A DNA stretch of 64,000 nucleotides. It comes from Acidomonas methanolica. GTDB lineage: Bacteria; Pseudomonadota; Alphaproteobacteria; Acetobacterales; Acetobacteraceae. Below, piece by piece: positions 575 through 8,812 of this stretch (positions are counted from its first letter, which is position 1; each line of letters starts with the position of its first letter). The notes under the pieces were generated by a model. The model made no database searches, was not told the DNA's origin, and saw only the letters and a list, made by a program, of their open reading frames with translations. A program made the translations under genes and the position numbers. The DNA lies in assembly GCF_004346035.1 (NCBI RefSeq), contig NZ_SLZN01000010.1, positions 1-64,000 of the forward strand, given 5' to 3'.

Positions 575-737
575 GCGACGGCGAGCGCTCCGACGAGGAT
601 CGGCCGGGAGAAAGGACGAAGACCGCGACATCGACCGTGAAGATGGAGAGGATTGCGGCCGCCGAATGGCGGATCGGGACGAGATCGAGGACGGCTCTGC
701 CGATCGTCGCGTCGTTAAGCGCCGGGAGTCGGGAAAA
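575..737 (-). pseudogene. Remnant of an amino-acid ABC transporter permease gene
   Basis: Read on the minus strand, this stretch encodes ALNDATIGRAVLDLVPIRHS then AAAILSIFTVDVAVFVLS. This aligns with the intact permease of the operon (3348-4430; ALNDAAVSRTFFDLGLIRRS, then AGAILSAFTVNIAIFVLS) and is also close at DNA level. Near position 601 the frame breaks: continuing the match (ILVGALAVA versus LILVWALVVA) requires a one-base shift. Only about 50-55 codons remain, with no start and no downstream TM region. It sits immediately downstream of the last operon gene, so it is either a partial duplication or the trace of a second permease gene. Non-functional. Confidence 0.75.
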
Positions 738-764: not shown

Positions 765-1565
765 TCAATGTGTCAAAAACTGATAGGCGCGGCGAATATC
801 GAAGAAATCGCGTGCCTCGAAGGCAATCGCGCAGGGACCGGCCGGGCGCGCGCCGGGATACCATTGGACGCGATAGGCATCCGCCGCCGAGCAGAACGTG
901 ATGACGATCTCATACATGTCGCGTCGCTGCGGCAGACAGGACGCGAAGGGGTGCGAGAGCGCCTCGGTGACGCCGTCGCGGATCGCGCGCGTCGCATCGA
1001 CGGGCGCGCGCGAAAGGGTGGCTGGGCCGAAGCCGGTCAACGTCCCGACGGTGCCGATCCCCGGGACGAGGGTCGACGCATCGGCGCAAATGGTGGCGTC
1101 GCCGCTGAGGAAGACGGACGGCACGCCGTAGGATTCGGCGCAAAGCGCGTTGAGCGTGAACTCCGAAGCGGGCGCGCCGTTGAGCGTCACCAGCGCGATC
1201 CGCCGCGAGGTCGTGTGGGCGAGAGGGTTGCCCGCATCGCCCGCCCTGGCGTGGTAGCCCGTATAGAGTGCGGCGGTGAAGCTCTCGTCGAGGCCGAACA
1301 TCATGCCGTCTGGATGGCCTGACCAGCCGCGCAGGATCGTCACATAGGCGGGCAGTCGATCGAGGAGGATGTTGCGCCCGCTTTCATGCGCGTCCTTCAC
1401 CAGGATCTCGGACGCGCCCGCCTGATGCGCGCCTTCGCAGGCGGCGACGACCTCGTCAGTCATCAGAGCGCGGAAGGCAGGATAGTCGGCATGGAGGCGG
1501 TCCACCTCCGGCCATGCGGCTATTCCGGCGGTGCCTTCCATGTCGGCGCTGATGAAAATCTTCAT
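765..1565 (-). CDS. dppA: M55 family D-aminopeptidase (DppA-like)
   Basis: A 266-residue cytoplasmic metallopeptidase of family M55, which in Bacillus (DppA) releases N-terminal D-residues from peptides such as D-Ala-D-Ala. The start MKIFISADMEGTAG is the family hallmark. Zinc-ligand positions known from DppA are visible at the expected places: D8, E10, H60 (KDAHESG), H105 (TGYHA) and E135 (ASEF). Its ATG overlaps the stop of the preceding peptidase gene by ATGA (1562-1565), so it is the last, translationally coupled gene of a six-gene operon. Lying beside a D-amino-acid aminotransferase, it probably acts on imported D-peptides. The longer open frame upstream of this ATG is the other gene read out of frame. 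Confidence 0.9.
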   Translation of the reverse strand: MKIFISADMEGTAGIAAWPEVDRLHADYPAFRALMTDEVVAACEGAHQAGASEILVKDAHESGRNILLDRLPAYVTILRGWSGHPDGMMFGLDESFTAALYTGYHARAGDAGNPLAHTTSRRIALVTLNGAPASEFTLNALCAESYGVPSVFLSGDATICADASTLVPGIGTVGTLTGFGPATLSRAPVDATRAIRDGVTEALSHPFASCLPQRRDMYEIVITFCSAADAYRVQWYPGARPAGPCAIAFEARDFFDIRRAYQFLTH

Positions 1566-2608
1566 GAGGGGACGCTTTCCTGTAACCAGTCGGCGAGGGA
1601 GGGGAAGAAGCGGTCGCGGCCCTGCATCGCCGGGGCGGCGCACAGCGCGTTCAGCACGGCTTCCTCCGTCGCCTCGGCAGCGGCGCGGAACGGCAGGTCG
1701 ATCAGCGGCTCCGCGATCCGCGTGACGGTGACGAAGGGCGGGTCGGGATCGTGCGACACCCGGTCGGCGGTGGTAAAGCACAGCGCGATGTCGCCGCTGC
1801 CGTGTCCCCAGAACGAGCCGAGCCGCGCCAGCCCGGCGGCGGCACGCCGGGCCGTGCGGGCGAGCTGGCGGTCGTCCAGCGGCAGGTCTGTGCCCAGGAT
1901 GACGATGACCGAGCCTTTCTCCCCCTCGCGGTCGCGGCGGACGGATGGCCGCCTGCCGCAGGGCAGGACGAGGTCGCCCGGCACGCCGAAATTGGCGAGC
2001 ACGAGCGCACCAAGCGTGAAGGTCCGCGCGCCGAGCGTCAGCACGCGCGAGGCCGTCCCGATCCCCGCCTTGAACCCGAAGGCCGTCATCCCGGTCCCGG
2101 CTCCGACTGCCCCTTGCGCAACCGGGCCGCCTGACGCCGCGTCAAGCGCCGCAACCGCGTCCTCCCGCGTGACGGCGAAGGACTGGATGTCGTTGAGTGC
2201 GCCGTCATTGCATTCCAGGACGAGCGGATTGACGGTCGAGGTCGTCCGGCCGATGCTGGGATTCGCGGCGATGGCCCGGCGGATCAGCGCCTCGGCGCAG
2301 GCAGGCACGCCGAAGGTATTGGTCAGAAGGATCGGCGTCTCGATCGTGCCGAGTTCGCGAAGCTGGAGCAATCCGACGGATTTGCCGAATCCGTTGATGA
2401 CGTCCACGCTTGCGCGAATCTTTTCGCGGAACGGGTCGCCAGGGGCGGCCATGATCGCCGTCACACCCGTCGCCGTGCCGTCGCCGCGCAGGGTGCGGTG
2501 CCCGACCGCGACGCCCGGCACGTCGGTGAGCGCGTTGAGCGGGCCGGGGGGGAGATGATCCGCCGGAATGAGCGCGAAATCGCGTGCCGGGCGCGGCTGC
2601 GCGCTCAC
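1562..2608 (-). CDS. dmpA: P1/DmpA family aminopeptidase (S58)
   Basis: A 348-residue Ntn-type peptidase of the DmpA/BapA (L-aminopeptidase D-esterase) family. Family members self-cleave before a nucleophilic Ser and release N-terminal residues, some accepting D-Ala or beta-peptides. Visible signs: the N-terminal ALTDVPGVAVGHRTL, the block RTTSTVNPLVLECNDG (about 121-136), GAVGAGTGMTAFGFKAGIG (167-185), and the probable cleavage site G232-S233 in EKGSVIVILGTD. The GTG start at 2608 overlaps the ATPase stop (GTGA), and the stop overlaps the dppA ATG, so it is coupled on both sides. No signal peptide, hence cytoplasmic. Paired with dppA it suggests stepwise digestion of imported peptides containing D-residues. 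Confidence 0.87.
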   Translation of the reverse strand: MSAQPRPARDFALIPADHLPPGPLNALTDVPGVAVGHRTLRGDGTATGVTAIMAAPGDPFREKIRASVDVINGFGKSVGLLQLRELGTIETPILLTNTFGVPACAEALIRRAIAANPSIGRTTSTVNPLVLECNDGALNDIQSFAVTREDAVAALDAASGGPVAQGAVGAGTGMTAFGFKAGIGTASRVLTLGARTFTLGALVLANFGVPGDLVLPCGRRPSVRRDREGEKGSVIVILGTDLPLDDRQLARTARRAAAGLARLGSFWGHGSGDIALCFTTADRVSHDPDPPFVTVTRIAEPLIDLPFRAAAEATEEAVLNALCAAPAMQGRDRFFPSLADWLQESVPS

Positions 2609-3351
2609 AGCCGCCCGGCCTTGACGAGGTCGCGCAGGAAGGCGCGTGTCTTCTCCTTCTGCGGGTCGCCGAAGATCGCGTCCGGCGTGCCCTCCTCGTG
2701 GACCTGCCCCTGCCACAGAAAGCAGACGCGATCCGAGACCTCGCGCGCGAAGCCCATCTCGTGCGTGGCGAGGATCATGGTCATGCCGTCCGCCGCCAGC
2801 GTGCGCACGATGTCGAGCACCTCAGCGACCAGTTCCGGGTCGAGCGCGGAGGTGATCTCGTCGAGCAGGAGCAGTTTCGGGTTCATCATCAGCGCACGAA
2901 CGATGGCCACGCGTTGCTGCTGTCCGCCCGAGAGACGGTCCGGATGCTCGGCCGCCTTGTGGGCGAGCCCCACGCGCTTGAGCAGCGTCATGGCGCGTGC
3001 TTCCGCCTCGTCGCGCCGCTGTCCGAGCAGGGCCATGGGGGCGAGTGTCGCGTTGCGCAGCACGGTCATGTGCGGGAAGAGGTTGTAGGCCTGGAAGACG
3101 ATGCCGATCTCGCGCCGGAGCCGGTCGAGATCGACGCCCTTGCCGGTGATCCGCTCGCCATGGACGCGGATTTCGCCCGAGTCGGTGTCCTCCAGCCGGT
3201 TGATGCAGCGCAGGAGCGAGGATTTCCCGCAGCCGGACGGGCCGATGAGACAGACGACCTCGTGCTCGTCCACCTGGAGGGACAGGCCGGAGAGAACCTC
3301 CAGCGCCCCGTAGCGTTTGGTGATCCGGTCGATTTCGAGAAGCGCCATCAT
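2605..3351 (-). CDS. Polar amino-acid ABC transporter ATP-binding protein
   Basis: A 248-residue ATPase of the GlnQ/HisP type that powers uptake of polar amino acids. Walker A GPSGCGKSS (37-45), the signature LSGGQQQRVAIVRAL starting at 140, Walker B LLLLDE (160-165), the D-loop SALDPE and the switch His in ATHEMGF are all present. It begins ATGATG at 3351, overlapping the permease stop, and is followed by the DmpA-like gene with a GTGA overlap. With the neighbouring binding protein and permease it forms a complete importer. The substrate cannot be read from the ATPase; context argues for D-amino acids or small peptides. Confidence 0.93.
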   Translation of the reverse strand: MMALLEIDRITKRYGALEVLSGLSLQVDEHEVVCLIGPSGCGKSSLLRCINRLEDTDSGEIRVHGERITGKGVDLDRLRREIGIVFQAYNLFPHMTVLRNATLAPMALLGQRRDEAEARAMTLLKRVGLAHKAAEHPDRLSGGQQQRVAIVRALMMNPKLLLLDEITSALDPELVAEVLDIVRTLAADGMTMILATHEMGFAREVSDRVCFLWQGQVHEEGTPDAIFGDPQKEKTRAFLRDLVKAGRL

Positions 3352-4430
3352 GCGCCTCCCGCCGCGCGTCGGCCTGCCATGTCGCGGGTCAGCCGGTCGA
3401 CGAGCCGTGCCTGCGGGATGGTGAGCGCCACGAAGAGGATGGCGACCGTCGTGACGGCGGACAGGTTGAAATCGTTGGCCGCGATGATCTTCGACTGGTT
3501 GAAGGCGTCGATCGTGCCGATGACGGAGACGAGTGCGGTGTCCTTCTGGAGGCTGATGCAGTCGTTCATCAGCGGCGGCGCGATAGTGCGCAGCGCCAGC
3601 GGGATGACGACGTGGCGCAGCGTCATGGCATGGCTGAAGCCCAGCGAGCGGGCGGCGGAGACGAGGCTGTGATGCACGCTCTCGATGCCCGCGCGATAGA
3701 CCTCGGATGTATAGGCGCCATAGGTCAGCGTCAGCGCGATGACCGCGTAGGCCGTCGAGGAAAGAGAGGAAAGGACCGGCAGGTTGGTCAGCGGCAGGCC
3801 GAAGCCGATGAGATAGAGTGTGATGACGGCGGGCAGGCCGCGGAACAGGTCGCAATAGGCCGTCGCCATCACGCGCAGGGGGCGTCCGGCCTCGCCCGGC
3901 AGCGTGCGCGCGATGGCGACGACGAGCGCCCAGACGAGGATCAGCCCGAAGGAGAGGACGAAGATCGCGATATTGACCGTGAAGGCGGAGAGGATCGCGC
4001 CTGCCGAACGGCGGATCAGGCCGAGATCGAAGAAGGTCCGGCTCACCGCCGCGTCGTTGAGCGCCAGGAGCCAGGCGAGCCCCAGGAGGATCGCCAGCGC
4101 GCTGCTCCAGGCCAGCGCGTTCCACGCGCGCAGCGAGGCGCGCGCGCCGAATTCCCGCGCCTCATGGATTTCCGCCGCCTTCTTCCCTGCGCGGGAGAAG
4201 AGGACCGCGAGAACCCCCAGCCGCGCGACGAAGACGCAGGCCGCCAGAAGAGGCAGGGCGGCAAGCGCGACGAGGACGGGGGCGATGCCCTGCGCCATGG
4301 CGTAACCGCCGATCCGCCAGGCCGTGAGCGCGGTCAGACCGCCCATCCCCAGCGCGGCGAGGAGCGCCAGGACGGAGCGCGCGCGATGGAGGCGCGCGGG
4401 AGTCGGGCCGCCGGTTTCTGCCGCCGTCAT
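3348..4430 (-). CDS. Amino-acid ABC transporter permease (HisMQ type)
   Basis: About 360 residues, longer than the usual 220-residue His/Glu-type permease because of an N-terminal extension with two to three extra TM helices before the standard BPD_transp_1 domain. The EAA-like cytoplasmic loop is visible (GIESVHHSLVSAARSLGFSH), as is the motif FRGLPAVITLYLIGFGLPLT. The ATG at 4430 gives a 4-nt overlap with the binding-protein stop, as elsewhere in the operon; an in-frame ATG at 4436 is an alternative. A degraded copy of its middle portion (around residues 122-172) lies at 575-737. No second permease gene is seen, so it presumably forms a homodimer. Confidence 0.9.
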   Translation of the reverse strand: MTAAETGGPTPARLHRARSVLALLAALGMGGLTALTAWRIGGYAMAQGIAPVLVALAALPLLAACVFVARLGVLAVLFSRAGKKAAEIHEAREFGARASLRAWNALAWSSALAILLGLAWLLALNDAAVSRTFFDLGLIRRSAGAILSAFTVNIAIFVLSFGLILVWALVVAIARTLPGEAGRPLRVMATAYCDLFRGLPAVITLYLIGFGLPLTNLPVLSSLSSTAYAVIALTLTYGAYTSEVYRAGIESVHHSLVSAARSLGFSHAMTLRHVVIPLALRTIAPPLMNDCISLQKDTALVSVIGTIDAFNQSKIIAANDFNLSAVTTVAILFVALTIPQARLVDRLTRDMAGRRAAGGA

Positions 4431-5269
4431 CGCCATAGGGGGATCTCCGTCGGGTCGATGCCATGCCAGCTCGGCGCAAGATAGGCGGTCTCCAGCGCGG
4501 CCAGCGTGCCGTCGTCGCGCATGGCGTCGAGGAGCCGGTCGATCTCCGGCGCCTCGGCCGAGCCGAGCGGCAGGATGGCGGCCAGCGGACGGCCGTCCGC
4601 GAACCGCCCGGCGACGACGAAGCGCCCGTGCGCGGCCCCTACCTGTCCGAGGATGACCGAAAGGCTCGTGACGACGGCATCCACATTGCCCGCCGCGAGC
4701 GCCGTGAACATCGTGCCCGTGTCGTCGAAGGCCGAGAGCCGCCGGATATGCAACGTGTCGCGCAGCCAATCCGGGACGTTCGCCTCGATCTGCGTCGCAA
4801 CGCGCATCGAGCGGAGGCGCGTCGGATCGGCCGGTCTACCCGCGCGCACGGCGACGCCGTAGCTGTCGCGCGCATAGGGCACCGAGAAGGTGACGACGTC
4901 GCGCTTGCGGTGCCGGACAGACAGCAGCGCGAGCGCGAGGTCGTAGCCGCGGTTCCGCCCGGCGATCAGCGAATCGAGCGTCGTATTGCGCAGTACGACG
5001 CGGTCGAGCCCCAGCCGGTAGGCGAGATTCACCGCCATGCAGAATTCGCGGCCGGATCGGATCGTCTCAGGCGTTTCGCCGTCGAACTCGCCGACGGCGG
5101 GGAGGTTGACGAGCACGGTCAGCTGGCCGGGGATCGCGGGCTCGATATGGCCGGTCGCGCGATGCCCGAAGAGAGCGCACCGGCCGTATCCATCGGCGGC
5201 GCTGGCCGGATGGAGGGTGAGCGCCGCACAAAGGGAGGCAAGAAGAAAGGGAGTTCGCGCAGCTCTCAT
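4427..5269 (-). CDS. Periplasmic amino-acid-binding protein (SBP family 3)
   Basis: 280 residues with a clear signal peptide (MRAARTPFLLASLCAALTLHPASAADG), so exported to the periplasm, where it would deliver ligand to the permease. The rest fits the bacterial extracellular solute-binding family 3: the segment REFCMAVNLAYRLGLDRVVLRNT near residues 73-96, and NVDAVVTSLSVILGQV in the second lobe. It carries several Cys residues, unusual but compatible with disulfides. It is the second gene of the operon; its ATG overlaps the aminotransferase stop (5266-5269). The ligand is unknown; D-amino acids are inferred from the flanking enzymes. Confidence 0.85.
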   Translation of the reverse strand: MRAARTPFLLASLCAALTLHPASAADGYGRCALFGHRATGHIEPAIPGQLTVLVNLPAVGEFDGETPETIRSGREFCMAVNLAYRLGLDRVVLRNTTLDSLIAGRNRGYDLALALLSVRHRKRDVVTFSVPYARDSYGVAVRAGRPADPTRLRSMRVATQIEANVPDWLRDTLHIRRLSAFDDTGTMFTALAAGNVDAVVTSLSVILGQVGAAHGRFVVAGRFADGRPLAAILPLGSAEAPEIDRLLDAMRDDGTLAALETAYLAPSWHGIDPTEIPLWR

Positions 5270-6135
5270 CGGTCGTCAGTGCCCAGCACGGCGTCCAGAT
5301 AATAGCGCTGGAGATGGCGCGTCAGCCGCCCCGGATTCCCGTCGCCGATAATGGTGTCTGCGATCCGCACGACGGGCGTGATCAGCGAGCCGGCGCTCGT
5401 CAGGAACGCCTCCGCCGCGTCCGCCGCCTCCTGCGGGGTAAAAGCGCGCTCGACGAAGACCAGGCCGTGGCGTGCGCAGAGGTCCAGCACGGCCCGGCGC
5501 GTGCAGCCCGGCAGTGTCGCGCGCGAGTTCGGCCGGGTGACGACCGCGCCGTCGCGCGTGATGAGAAAGGCGGTCGAGGACGCGCCCTCGGTGATCATGC
5601 CGTCCTCGACGAACCAGACCTCCGCGCAGCCTGCGTCGCGCGCCTCCCGCTTCGCCAGAACCTGGCCGAGCAGCATCGTCGTCTTGATATCGCGGCGTGC
5701 CCAGCGCGGCTCCGGCAGCAGCGCCACGGCAATTCCGTCCCGATGCGCAGGCGTATCGCGTATCGCGCGCCGCTGTGTGAACGCGAAAAAATCGGGCAAA
5801 AGAGTGTCGGCATATCGGTAATCGCGATCCGCTGCCCCTCTGGAAATCTGGAGATAGACGGTGCCCTCCATCAGCGCGTTGCGCGTGATGAGGCCGTTCT
5901 GGATCGCCGCGATCTCGGCGCGGGGGCAGGGCAGAGGGATGTCCAGCGCCGCAAGCGAGCGTTCGAGGCGGTCGAGATGCAGGGAATTGTCGATCATGCG
6001 ACCGTCAATGACGGCCGTTACCTCGTAGACCGCGTCGCCGAACAGCGTGCCGCGGTCGAAAATGCTGAGGCGTGCGTCCTGCTCCGGGACATAATTGCCC
6101 CCGCAATAGACGAACCGCGCCGTTTCCGTTGTCAT
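5266..6135 (-). CDS. dat: D-amino-acid aminotransferase, PLP fold type IV
   Basis: 289 residues, first gene of the operon. It would transfer the amino group between D-amino acids and 2-oxo acids in the cytoplasm. Fold-type-IV features: the start RGTLFGDAVYEVTAVIDGRM, the PLP lysine K151 in RRDIKTTMLLGQVLAKREA, the cofactor Glu in MITEGASS (E183), and LPGCTRRAVLDLC. The DIKT..LLGQVLAK block is typical of D-alanine aminotransferases rather than branched-chain enzymes. The carboxylate-binding motif usually seen as PRxH is DRDY here (103-106), so specificity may differ from D-Ala. The ATG at 6135 faces a 316-nt region shared with a divergent TonB receptor gene. Confidence 0.88.
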   Translation of the reverse strand: MTTETARFVYCGGNYVPEQDARLSIFDRGTLFGDAVYEVTAVIDGRMIDNSLHLDRLERSLAALDIPLPCPRAEIAAIQNGLITRNALMEGTVYLQISRGAADRDYRYADTLLPDFFAFTQRRAIRDTPAHRDGIAVALLPEPRWARRDIKTTMLLGQVLAKREARDAGCAEVWFVEDGMITEGASSTAFLITRDGAVVTRPNSRATLPGCTRRAVLDLCARHGLVFVERAFTPQEAADAAEAFLTSAGSLITPVVRIADTIIGDGNPGRLTRHLQRYYLDAVLGTDDR

Positions 6136-6451
6136 GTGCCGGGTTCACCTTCATGCGGGGGAGAGTCTTCGTAGGGCATCGTCGCACACCATCCTGTAAC
6201 GAGTATCTCCCGGACTGACTCGTTGACCTGATAATACTGTCAGCGATGCTTTACGCTCGCACCGGACGAGTCAATTCCAAAAAAGACATGTGCCGTTAGC
6301 CATGGGTTATTGCCGTTTCGCCGCCTGGCGCGGCGGAAGAGCCGAGATAACCGCAGGTTAAGCGAGAGCCATATAAACGATCTTGGACCGCTCTCGTAAC
6401 GTGGCCTAACGTTTCGTCTCTGGGACGAACTTGCCACGGGAGTTTACGAAT
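6136..6451. promoter_or_regulatory. Divergent intergenic region: dat operon / TonB receptor
   Basis: This 316-nt spacer must hold promoters for the leftward peptidase-transporter operon and the rightward receptor. Visible structure: an interrupted hairpin at 6316-6338 (TTTCGCCGC / GCGGCGGAA around ctggc), enclosed by GGTTAT (6305-6310) and ATAACC (about 6347-6352). It lies 100-150 nt upstream of the receptor start and could be an operator or a 5'-leader structure. No Fur-box-like sequence was recognised. A ribosome-binding GGGAG at 6438-6442 precedes the receptor ATG. Confidence 0.5.
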
Positions 6452-8812
6452 ATGGCGTCGCTTGCGACAAAGAACCGTCTTCGCGCGGTAAGAAAACTCG
6501 GGCTCGTTTCGGCGGTTTCCCTTTTCGCGCTGAGTCTCGCTCCGTCCGCCGCGCTCGCCGCCGCCGATCCGGTGAAGAAGACGAATGCTGTGTCCCCTCC
6601 GGACAAGAAGAAGAAAAAAAACACCCGCAAGGCGGTCCCGCTCACCGCAGAGAGCATCAGCGTCGTGGGTATGGGATCGACGCGTCAGGTCCAGGCGCTT
6701 GGCAAGGAACAGTTCTCGACCTACGTCGCGGGCACCAATCCGATGAAGATGCTCAATCAGTTGCCGGGCGTCACGTTCATGAGCAGCGATCCGCTGGGCA
6801 TCGATATCTGGTCGTGGGATCTGTATATACGCGGTTTCGAGGTTGGAGAACTCGCCAGCACGATCGACGGCATTCCCGCCATGGACGTGCAGAATTTCGT
6901 CTCCCAGTCCAATCTCGGTCATGTATCGGTGTCTCAGGGCGCGGGCGGCGTGGATGTGCCGTCCGTCACGAATCTCGGCGGGCATATCGGATGGTCCACC
7001 GATACGCCCAAGGATCGATACGGCGGCACGATCTCGCAGACCTTCGGCAGTTATGCGGCCTATGACACGTTCGTGCGGTTCGACAGCGGGCAGATTGGCA
7101 AGCACGGAACGAAGTTCTTCGTTTCGTACGATCGTGCGTCGGAAGGGCAGTGGGTCGGCGGCGGGTCCGAGTTCAGGGAGGTCGTGAACGCGAAGCTCGA
7201 CCAGCCGATCGACGAGCATTCCCATCTGAAGGCATTTTTCGCCTGGGCCTATAACAGCAGCGATCCTTATCCCGATCTTTCCATGAATATTCTCAATACG
7301 CTCGGCCAACGCATCACGTACTACAAGCCGAACTATGCCGCAGCCTATCGCGCGGCGCTCGCGGCCCAGGGCCTGCCCGGAGGCAGCTATCCGGCAGGCT
7401 ATGATTTGCTGCAAGATCCGGCGGATGCGTCCTATTATGACGGTCCGAACCGCTTCAGCAACTACATGGCCTACGTCAAATACAATAACCAGCTCACCAA
7501 CCGCCTGAACCTGGATGCGTCGTTCTACGGGTTGGGACGTGCCCATCATGGTTTATGGGCGACCCCTTACATGGAGGCACCCAACGGTTCGCCTCTCACC
7601 GAGCAGGACTTCGTGAATATGGGGCAGGAAGGCGGTCTGACGGCGAGTTTGAAATACAGGCTTGCGAAGCATCTCATCGAAGGCGGCGTGTGGTATGACC
7701 ATACGAATGACGACTACACCAAAAGATATTACGAGGAGCCGGTACTGGGAGAGGGAGCGCCACTGAACTCCCTCAACCCGCTTCCGTCCTCGGCCTATTA
7801 TGGCTCGCCATACAATATCGGCTATCACTTCGACACGCTTCAGATCCATCTTCAGGACACGTACAAGCCGGTCAGGAATCTGACCATCAATGCCGGTTTC
7901 CGGTCGATTATCTATTCCGGAACGTCGCATATCATTGAGAACGATCCGACTTATACGGGTCAGTCCTCTCTGCCGCACGGCACGCTGCATTATAATTCCG
8001 CATTTCTGCCGCAGGTGGGCATCACGTATCGGATCGACCATAACAACGAGCTGTTCTTCGATTTTTCGAAGAACCTGTCCGTCTTCGGTCCGGGGAGCTA
8101 CAATTCGTCCTCGCCGTGGGGCGCGGCCGACTGGGCGACGTTCAACTATATCAGGAACAATATCCAACCTGAATCCGATTATGTCTACGAGGTGGGATAC
8201 CGCTATTCCTCGCCATGGGTGCGCGGTCTGGTGGATCTTTACCATACGGACTATCGCAACCGCGTCGGGTCCATCACCGTCGGCTCGATCGTGGATTCGG
8301 AATCGGTCCTGGCCAATCTCGGCTCGGTTCAGATGTATGGTGTGGACACCTCCCTGACCGTGACGCCGGTCACGGGGCTCGATATCACCAACTCATTCAG
8401 TTACAACAGCTCGAAATACGACAACGACGTCACGACTGATGGCGTCACCTATGCCTTGAAAGGCAAGAGTGAAGTCAATTACCCGCATTACATGTATAAA
8501 TCGACTGCACTCTACACGTGGAAAGAGATCTCGGCGAATATCAGCGCGGCTTATACCTCGGCCCGTCCGCTCAGCTATGTGAACGACGTGATAGTGCCCG
8601 GATATTGGCTCGTCAACACGGGGGCGTCGTACCGGGTGCCGAAGAAGATCGGCCCCGGTCATCTGACCATCTCATTCACCGTCTATAATCTTTTGAACGA
8701 TAAATATATCGGTCAACTGGGAGAAAACGGGAATCCGATGTCGGGGGATTACCAGTCCTTCAATATGGGAGCGCCTCGGACCTTTTACGGCAGCCTCTCC
8801 TATCATTTCTGA
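6452..8812 (+). CDS. TonB-dependent outer-membrane receptor
   Basis: About 786 residues: signal peptide ending near ALAAAD, a lysine-rich linker, a probable TonB box (ESISVVG), then a plug domain (LNQLPGVTF, LYIRGFEVGELASTIDGIPA) and a 22-strand barrel ending in aromatic SYHF. GGGAG at 6438-6442 supports the ATG at 6452; the TTG at 6431 is less likely. The plug resembles receptors with TonB_dep_Rec barrels and has no siderophore-specific mark. It is divergent from the D-amino-acid/D-peptide operon, so joint control and shared substrate (peptidoglycan-type peptides or amino acids) are possible but inferred. Nth follows convergently after 18 nt with no obvious terminator. Confidence 0.9.
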   Translation: MASLATKNRLRAVRKLGLVSAVSLFALSLAPSAALAAADPVKKTNAVSPPDKKKKKNTRKAVPLTAESISVVGMGSTRQVQALGKEQFSTYVAGTNPMKMLNQLPGVTFMSSDPLGIDIWSWDLYIRGFEVGELASTIDGIPAMDVQNFVSQSNLGHVSVSQGAGGVDVPSVTNLGGHIGWSTDTPKDRYGGTISQTFGSYAAYDTFVRFDSGQIGKHGTKFFVSYDRASEGQWVGGGSEFREVVNAKLDQPIDEHSHLKAFFAWAYNSSDPYPDLSMNILNTLGQRITYYKPNYAAAYRAALAAQGLPGGSYPAGYDLLQDPADASYYDGPNRFSNYMAYVKYNNQLTNRLNLDASFYGLGRAHHGLWATPYMEAPNGSPLTEQDFVNMGQEGGLTASLKYRLAKHLIEGGVWYDHTNDDYTKRYYEEPVLGEGAPLNSLNPLPSSAYYGSPYNIGYHFDTLQIHLQDTYKPVRNLTINAGFRSIIYSGTSHIIENDPTYTGQSSLPHGTLHYNSAFLPQVGITYRIDHNNELFFDFSKNLSVFGPGSYNSSSPWGAADWATFNYIRNNIQPESDYVYEVGYRYSSPWVRGLVDLYHTDYRNRVGSITVGSIVDSESVLANLGSVQMYGVDTSLTVTPVTGLDITNSFSYNSSKYDNDVTTDGVTYALKGKSEVNYPHYMYKSTALYTWKEISANISAAYTSARPLSYVNDVIVPGYWLVNTGASYRVPKKIGPGHLTISFTVYNLLNDKYIGQLGENGNPMSGDYQSFNMGAPRTFYGSLSYHF

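Follow-up and report, generated by a model that had tools for sequence, protein, structure and literature searches.

The first 64,000 nucleotides of contig NZ_SLZN01000010.1 of Acidomonas methanolica (hereafter the window) carry, on the minus strand between positions 765 and 6135, a rare six-gene operon that probably serves as a self-contained scavenging unit for short peptides containing D-amino acids, most likely dipeptides or short stem-peptide fragments. Its six intact, overlapping open reading frames (ORFs) encode, in this order, an aminotransferase, the binding protein, permease and ATPase of an ATP-binding cassette (ABC) importer, a P1 peptidase and an M55 peptidase. Bacterial walls and secreted peptides supply D-amino acids, a nitrogen pool that is degraded slowly, and to our knowledge little has been learned about how bacteria import D-peptides. 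The main surprise lies in the importer. The Thr, Arg and Asp residues that align with the alpha-amino-acid contacts of the family have been lost specifically in the acetobacterial binding proteins, which is a new finding.

The gene identities proposed in a first-pass annotation of this stretch were borne out by Pfam and NCBIfam profiles for all six products. The first gene (5266-6135; PF01063, E 5.8e-48) encodes a class IV transaminase dependent on pyridoxal 5'-phosphate (PLP) and of the D-amino-acid transaminase type. It passes the NCBIfam model NF005209 'D-amino-acid transaminase' (332.8 bits, cut-off 320) and falls below the equivalog TIGR01121 (199.6 bits, cut-off 277.45). Among solved structures it is closest to D-amino-acid aminotransferases, 1daa for example (E 3.4e-43). 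Lys151, aligned with the lysine of a D-I-K motif and taken as the PLP lysine, is kept together with Tyr37 and Glu183 in all 14 orthologue rows.

At the other end of the operon, the last gene (765-1565; PF04951, E 9.1e-80) encodes a peptidase of the M55 or DppA type, with a full-length profile match (residues 1-262, 268.3 bits, gathering score 25). It aligns with the solved DppA 1hi9 (E 1.3e-26) and scores far below the DppA equivalog NF058634 (135.3 bits, cut-off 430); by that model, the product is best described as an M55 protein and not as a DppA equivalog. Asp8, Glu10, His60, His105, His117 and Glu135, which we take to have metal-binding or catalytic roles, are present in 14 of 14 rows. The operon therefore holds what a D-peptide utilisation cluster should hold, a member of a D-stereospecific peptidase family with its key residues intact. 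The adjoining P1 or DmpA-type peptidase (Pfam S58; 1562-2608, GTG start; PF03576, E 7.1e-107) scores 357.9 bits against a gathering score of 23.9, and its structural relatives in the PDB are 2drh (E 1.4e-81), the DmpA-type 1b65 (E 1.6e-58) and the beta-peptidyl aminopeptidase 3n2w (E 5.9e-47). The comparison of P1 residues covered the G-S-G-D motif and position 139. The motif (residues 270-273), which presumably holds the nucleophile, is kept in all 15 rows.

The three importer genes all lie inside the overlapped unit. They encode a periplasmic substrate-binding protein of the polar amino acid class (SBP_bac_3; 4427-5269; PF00497, E 3.6e-8; 33.7 bits against the SBP_bac_3 profile, cut-off 26.4), whose solved relatives are amino-acid binding proteins; an inner-membrane permease of the polar-amino-acid ABC class (3348-4436, alternative start 4430; PF00528 at residues 184-353, E 1.7e-20), which has an N-terminal extension of about 130 residues and passes TIGR01726 (56.8, cut-off 42.2); and an ATPase of the same class (2605-3351; PF00005, E 1.2e-37), whose best NCBIfam matches, EhuA, GlnQ and TcyN, each fall under the cut-off.

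How tightly are the six genes joined? The first-pass annotation had described a single operon in which every junction is a 4-nucleotide overlap. The single operon stands, and the overlap is certain at four of the five junctions, whereas that between the binding protein and the permease measures 10 nucleotides with the upstream ATG (4436) and 4 with the second ATG (4430). The 10-nucleotide spacing is also present in the two other Acetobacteraceae loci, whose junctions, with script-chosen start codons, run -4, -10, -4, -4, -4 in Gluconacetobacter dulcium (L115) and -4, -10, -4, -4, -17 at L114 (genome G072). The recurrence of overlaps at all five junctions in both relatives points to more than chance. 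Across the comparison loci with both peptidase genes, P1 and M55 overlap by 4 nucleotides in 12 of 13 and by 17 in the remaining one. In the 12 Rhizobiales loci compared, this is the sole overlapping junction (-4 in 11 of the 11 loci with both genes); complete overlap is therefore best seen as an acetobacterial refinement and not as a property of the whole module. The six products may be translationally coupled, which fits the earlier suggestion that they are made in step.

What does the importer bind? In the first substrate-binding domain of GlnPQ, an Arg and a Thr are described as holding the alpha-carboxyl group of the ligand and an acidic residue as holding its alpha-amino group (PMC11331510). 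The canonical motif S-V-T-x-x-R ... T-D is replaced by S-V-R-H-R-(K/T/E) ... T-S in all three acetobacterial proteins. At the Thr, Arg and Asp positions the window protein has Arg119, Lys122 and Ser202, and its relatives have Arg, Thr and Ser (L115) and Arg, Glu and Ser (L114). Among the Rhizobiales orthologues, all 12 rows keep Arg and Asp and 11 keep Thr (L091 has Lys, Arg and Asp), and binding proteins of the sister clades have Thr, Arg and Asp in six of six; overall, the non-acetobacterial rows show Arg and Asp in 18 of 18 and Thr in 17. These positions were assigned by alignment alone and a one-residue shift is possible, through which Arg121 could stand in for Arg122. Because the sister clades retain the canonical residues, the acetobacterial change is read as derived. 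Since it falls at ligand positions, the acetobacterial and Rhizobiales proteins probably bind different ligands, and the name 'polar amino-acid importer' probably misdescribes the ligand in the acetobacterial lineage.

The binding protein is also the product with the lowest mean identity between the acetobacterial and Rhizobiales groups (52.5%, against 61.2-76.0% for the other five), while identity inside the groups averages 70.7% and 78.0%. AlphaFold places a helix at residues 120-124 in the Rhizobiales protein (mean pLDDT, the predicted local distance difference test score, 83.0) and none there in the window protein (78.6). Block means of pLDDT for residues 111-120 and 121-130 are 62 and 52 in the window model and 74 and 78 in the Rhizobiales one; because few parts of the window model are less certain than this loop, the models support no more than 'changed or unsure' at this place. 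Fold comparison named no ligand: matches among the best 50 entries (Z 14.9-16.2, root-mean-square deviation 3.1-4.2 over 191-213 residues) include opine, cysteine and glutamine binders, cyclohexadienyl dehydratases and glutamate-receptor domains within about 1.3 Z of each other. All 19 binding proteins in the alignment have Cys31 and Cys77, which probably form a disulfide that marks the subfamily.

The association of the enzymes was surveyed at the best 80 of 243 M55 loci from genome contigs; loci ended by contig edges were kept in the denominators, and the counts are lower bounds. At 28 loci a P1 gene is found on the same strand no more than 1.5 kb away; 14 have a transaminase of the operon type within 8 kb, 10 a polar-class permease with a binding protein, and nine all of these together. 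At the 26 loci where M55 scores at least 300 bits, the corresponding numbers are 21, 13, 10 and nine; in four of the 26, transaminase and P1 occur without a polar-class importer, and five have no nearby P1 (L017-L021, of which L018 is a short contig). M55 also has a P1 gene within 1.5 kb in some Firmicutes and in one Spirochaetales genome (L050, L053, L054, L078 and L080).

The same enzymes are found with importers of a different class. On plasmid pShin-01 of Shinella HZN7 (L120), an S12 D-aminopeptidase (682 bits against NF009622, cut-off 443) is followed by D-transaminase, P1 and M55. After these come LysR, an amidohydrolase and an ABC importer, the binding protein of which scores best against Opp/Dpp models, all under cut-off. 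Sinorhizobium plasmids (L119, L121) show this layout without M55 and S12, and Shinella zoogloeoides has an annotated D-aminopeptidase with P1 and M55. One enzymatic core is thus combined with different importers, which would indicate that the class of substrate they share is short peptides with D residues. The D-stereochemistry theme of the first-pass annotation, seen in the window in M55, P1 and D-transaminase, was strengthened by the S12 enzyme and dipeptide/oligopeptide-type importer of Shinella HZN7. Because that strain pairs these with the same three enzymes, the comparison favours uptake and catabolism of D-peptides over uptake of free D-amino acids, and a joint D-peptide function of the operon appears likely.

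Is the unit conserved? The identical six genes in identical order are found in three Acetobacteraceae, namely the window, G. dulcium (L002/L115) and genome G072 (L114), and at 11 Rhizobiales loci, eight from genome contigs (L003, L004, L006, L008, L011, L012, L032 and L033) and three from plasmid records (L091, L092 and L098). The unit is therefore conserved in relatives, and the ground for refutation that the first-pass annotation had named, a lack of such conservation, does not apply. L032 and L098 are Rhizobium daejeonense strains with equal binding-protein scores, and L032 was omitted from the junction, residue and identity comparisons and from the tree. The distribution is patchy. Genome searches scored the best few candidates per genome, so that misses are possible. 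Among 397 family genomes, G057, G063 and G303 have a sister-type permease (285-307 bits), and the stretches around these permeases hold no match to the transaminase, P1 or M55. In a class-wide sample of 385 genomes searched at E 1e-60, the window's own genome was the sole match. M55 matches occur in 25 of 200 family genomes, and besides the window's own copy and that of G072 all 24 matches are distant (33-42% identity). When the genomes of ten loci were searched with the permease, seven gave a match, of the close type in six and a 46% relative in that of L013; those of L005, L015 and L024 gave none.

Have the acetobacterial copies been acquired recently from Rhizobiales? In a FastTree tree of P1 and M55 (34 taxa, tblastn segments, rooted on the Firmicutes and Spirochaetales loci L050, L053, L054, L078 and L080), the three copies from Acetobacteraceae group together with support 1.0. 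Their clade joins a Rhizobiales/Rhodobacterales clade at 0.881 and lies outside it, so that a recent transfer out of Rhizobiales is unsupported. Deep nodes inside the Rhizobiales/Rhodobacterales clade are weak (0.375, 0.167 and 0.202) and do not fix the order of the importer changes.

Divergent from the operon, a TonB-dependent receptor is encoded on the plus strand (6431-8812, ATG at 6452; PF00593, E 6.9e-27). A receptor 79% identical to it is encoded 4.6 kb away from the operon of G. dulcium. Matches in 200 sampled family genomes, among which G. dulcium is not listed, reach 50% for a paralogue in the window's own genome and 49% elsewhere. In G072, where the operon is present, the best match is 39% (with up to five candidates scored per genome). 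A close relative is thus near the operon in just one of the two other acetobacterial loci and a strict link was not established; the receptor is a possible outer-membrane partner, and the link is suggestive only. At the G072 locus a divergent LysR gene takes the place of the receptor. LysR genes also stand divergently upstream at the Rhizobiales loci L091 and L098 (as annotated) and L003 and L004 (judged by ORF sequence). A search of the window's genome at E 1e-15 gave no match to the G072-type regulator, a result of limited weight.

In G. dulcium, a DadA-like dehydrogenase gene (NF001933 349.4, under the cut-off of 383) lies between operon and receptor; no dadA-like gene adjoins the window operon, and the best match in that genome is on contig C14 (69%). 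The G. dulcium locus also has a gene of the Beta-lactamase2 family (PF13354; L115:12069-13184, minus strand) about 110 nucleotides upstream of the transaminase and in the same direction; its product could be a further D-peptide enzyme or a beta-lactamase. Just downstream of M55 in the window (603-737, minus strand), about 45 residues are 58% identical to residues 120-164 of the operon permease and appear to be the remnant of another importer gene. At the contig edge (1-130, plus strand) lies the C-terminal end of an IS66-type transposase (PF13817, E 7.3e-12), and insertion may have truncated this second permease.

How would the parts work together? The binding protein, permease and ATPase would carry a peptide across the inner membrane, and two unrelated cytoplasmic enzymes, M55 of the D-aminopeptidase type and P1 of the DmpA type, would cleave it. 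The class IV transaminase would then transfer the amino group from the freed D-amino acid to a keto acid and so yield a 2-oxo acid that the cell can use. We infer what the substrate is, which way the flux runs and how the two peptidases share the work. A further possibility, which we put forward tentatively, is that the acetobacterial binding protein has given up alpha-amino-acid recognition and, with the TonB receptor near two of the three loci, supplies a specific D-residue compound, for instance a non-ribosomal peptide or a stem fragment of peptidoglycan; an ABC importer of the polar-amino-acid class would then have turned into a dedicated D-peptide importer.

Several observations weigh against a D-peptide scavenging unit. 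The nearest solved relative of P1, 2drh, is only a hypothetical D-aminopeptidase, P1 position 139 is Asn in 11 of 15 rows and Ser in the other four, all Rhizobiales, and the family spans a broad range of activities, with L-aminopeptidases, D-amidases and beta-aminopeptidases among its members. Annotation of the importer class points to amino acids, and in its sister clades the neighbouring enzymes are unrelated. A permease of the operon type (above 500 bits) was found in three of the 397 family genomes (the window's own, G072 and G299), which makes the unit rare, and two further loci were scored as incomplete, L099 without M55 and L009 without a transaminase match. At the 47 loci where M55 scores below 240 bits, P1 is near in five, and the transaminase, the permease with binding protein, and the full set in none. 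The importer might alternatively be an ordinary polar-amino-acid importer that takes up free D-amino acids, whether or not peptides enter as well, with the transaminase as the main enzyme. The class of binding protein and ATPase and the canonical residues of the Rhizobiales proteins agree with this, but two peptidases would be needless, the same enzymes also adjoin a peptide-class importer, and all three contacts are gone from each of the acetobacterial proteins. We consider this version, which the first-pass annotation had allowed, improbable.

A related question is whether the substrate is another kind of amide (a beta-peptide, a conjugate with a gamma or iso linkage, or the amide of an amino acid) that depends mainly on P1 for its hydrolysis. 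Beta-peptidyl aminopeptidases are among the relatives of P1, and two sister-clade importers adjoin amidotransferase or C26-type genes (L093:9435-10178, GATase-family; L118:5621-6322, PuuD-like, 113.5 against a cut-off of 266), so that conjugated amines or amides may be ligands in the wider importer clade. Yet M55, the D-transaminase and, in Shinella, the S12 D-aminopeptidase recur with P1, and none of these would be expected for beta- or gamma-linked L-substrates, which makes such an amide an unlikely substrate. It is hardly credible that the genes are unrelated amino-acid genes brought together without a joint function. The patchy distribution, and the contig edge, IS66 end and permease remnant beside the operon, would suit such a neighbourhood, but the end-to-start overlaps, with that of P1 and M55 recurrent, speak against it, and the identical six-gene order across two orders and several replicons speaks strongly against chance adjacency, which was rejected on this conservation. 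Scavenging of short D-peptides is the reading that we retain. As one small unit with an importer, two peptidases and a transaminase, the operon could be deleted or moved as a whole. The different importers around the same enzymes, together with the two types of binding protein, canonical in Rhizobiales and altered in Acetobacteraceae, make importer specificity directly testable.

One of the two nearest described systems is the dpp operon of Bacillus subtilis, which combines the D-aminopeptidase DppA with a dipeptide importer and is thought to scavenge dipeptides containing D-Ala. Both systems couple an M55 D-aminopeptidase with an ABC importer. Unlike dpp, the window operon has an importer of the polar-amino-acid class with one long permease, adds P1 and a D-transaminase, and encodes an M55 protein far under the DppA equivalog cut-off. 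The product of B. subtilis dppA is reported to be a D-aminopeptidase (PMC11047901).

Had such an arrangement been described before? The first-pass annotation knew of no named system of this kind. The six-gene form was not found in the open-licence literature searched, which is weak evidence of novelty because the search covered such papers only, but a functionally similar D-peptide locus of Pyrococcus abyssi, the other of the two nearest systems, has been published. There, the D-stereospecific S12 peptidase Pab87 is encoded among genes for an aminotransferase, a D-aminoacylase and a dipeptide ABC importer, and the locus was proposed to process peptides of D-amino acids (PMC2651629). In both loci a peptidase with D-stereospecificity is encoded next to an importer and a PLP aminotransferase. 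The Pyrococcus locus differs in having an S12 CubicO peptidase, a D-aminoacylase and a dipeptide-class importer instead of P1, M55 and a polar-class importer, and the accessible text does not term it one operon, whereas the window parts form one compact operon. Elsewhere, a Rhodobacteraceae strain is reported to have a peptide-importer operon and to grow on peptidoglycan, but with different genes (PMC11747546), and in Brucella a binding-protein gene adjoins a D-aminopeptidase gene (PMC5874993). The gene listed under the name mlrC in the microcystin degrader Blastomonas fulva matches M55/DppA proteins and appears in a table alongside ATPase genes of dipeptide transporters (PMC9505733), which, on that listing, is another D-peptide context for M55.

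Closer to the window, the Shinella HZN7 and Sinorhizobium loci share its order of D-transaminase, P1 and, in Shinella, M55. They differ in having a separate dipeptide/oligopeptide-type importer block with LysR and an amidohydrolase, and no polar-class trio inside the operon; the S12 D-aminopeptidase is found in Shinella only, and M55 is missing from Sinorhizobium. The six-gene operons of Rhizobiales have the gene order of the window, with gaps except between P1 and M55 and with the canonical Arg and Asp (and, save in L091, Thr) in the binding protein. The parts of the Acidomonas operon are thus of known kinds, and its arrangement is a variant among D-peptide utilisation clusters, unusual in its combination of genes and in its changed binding protein.

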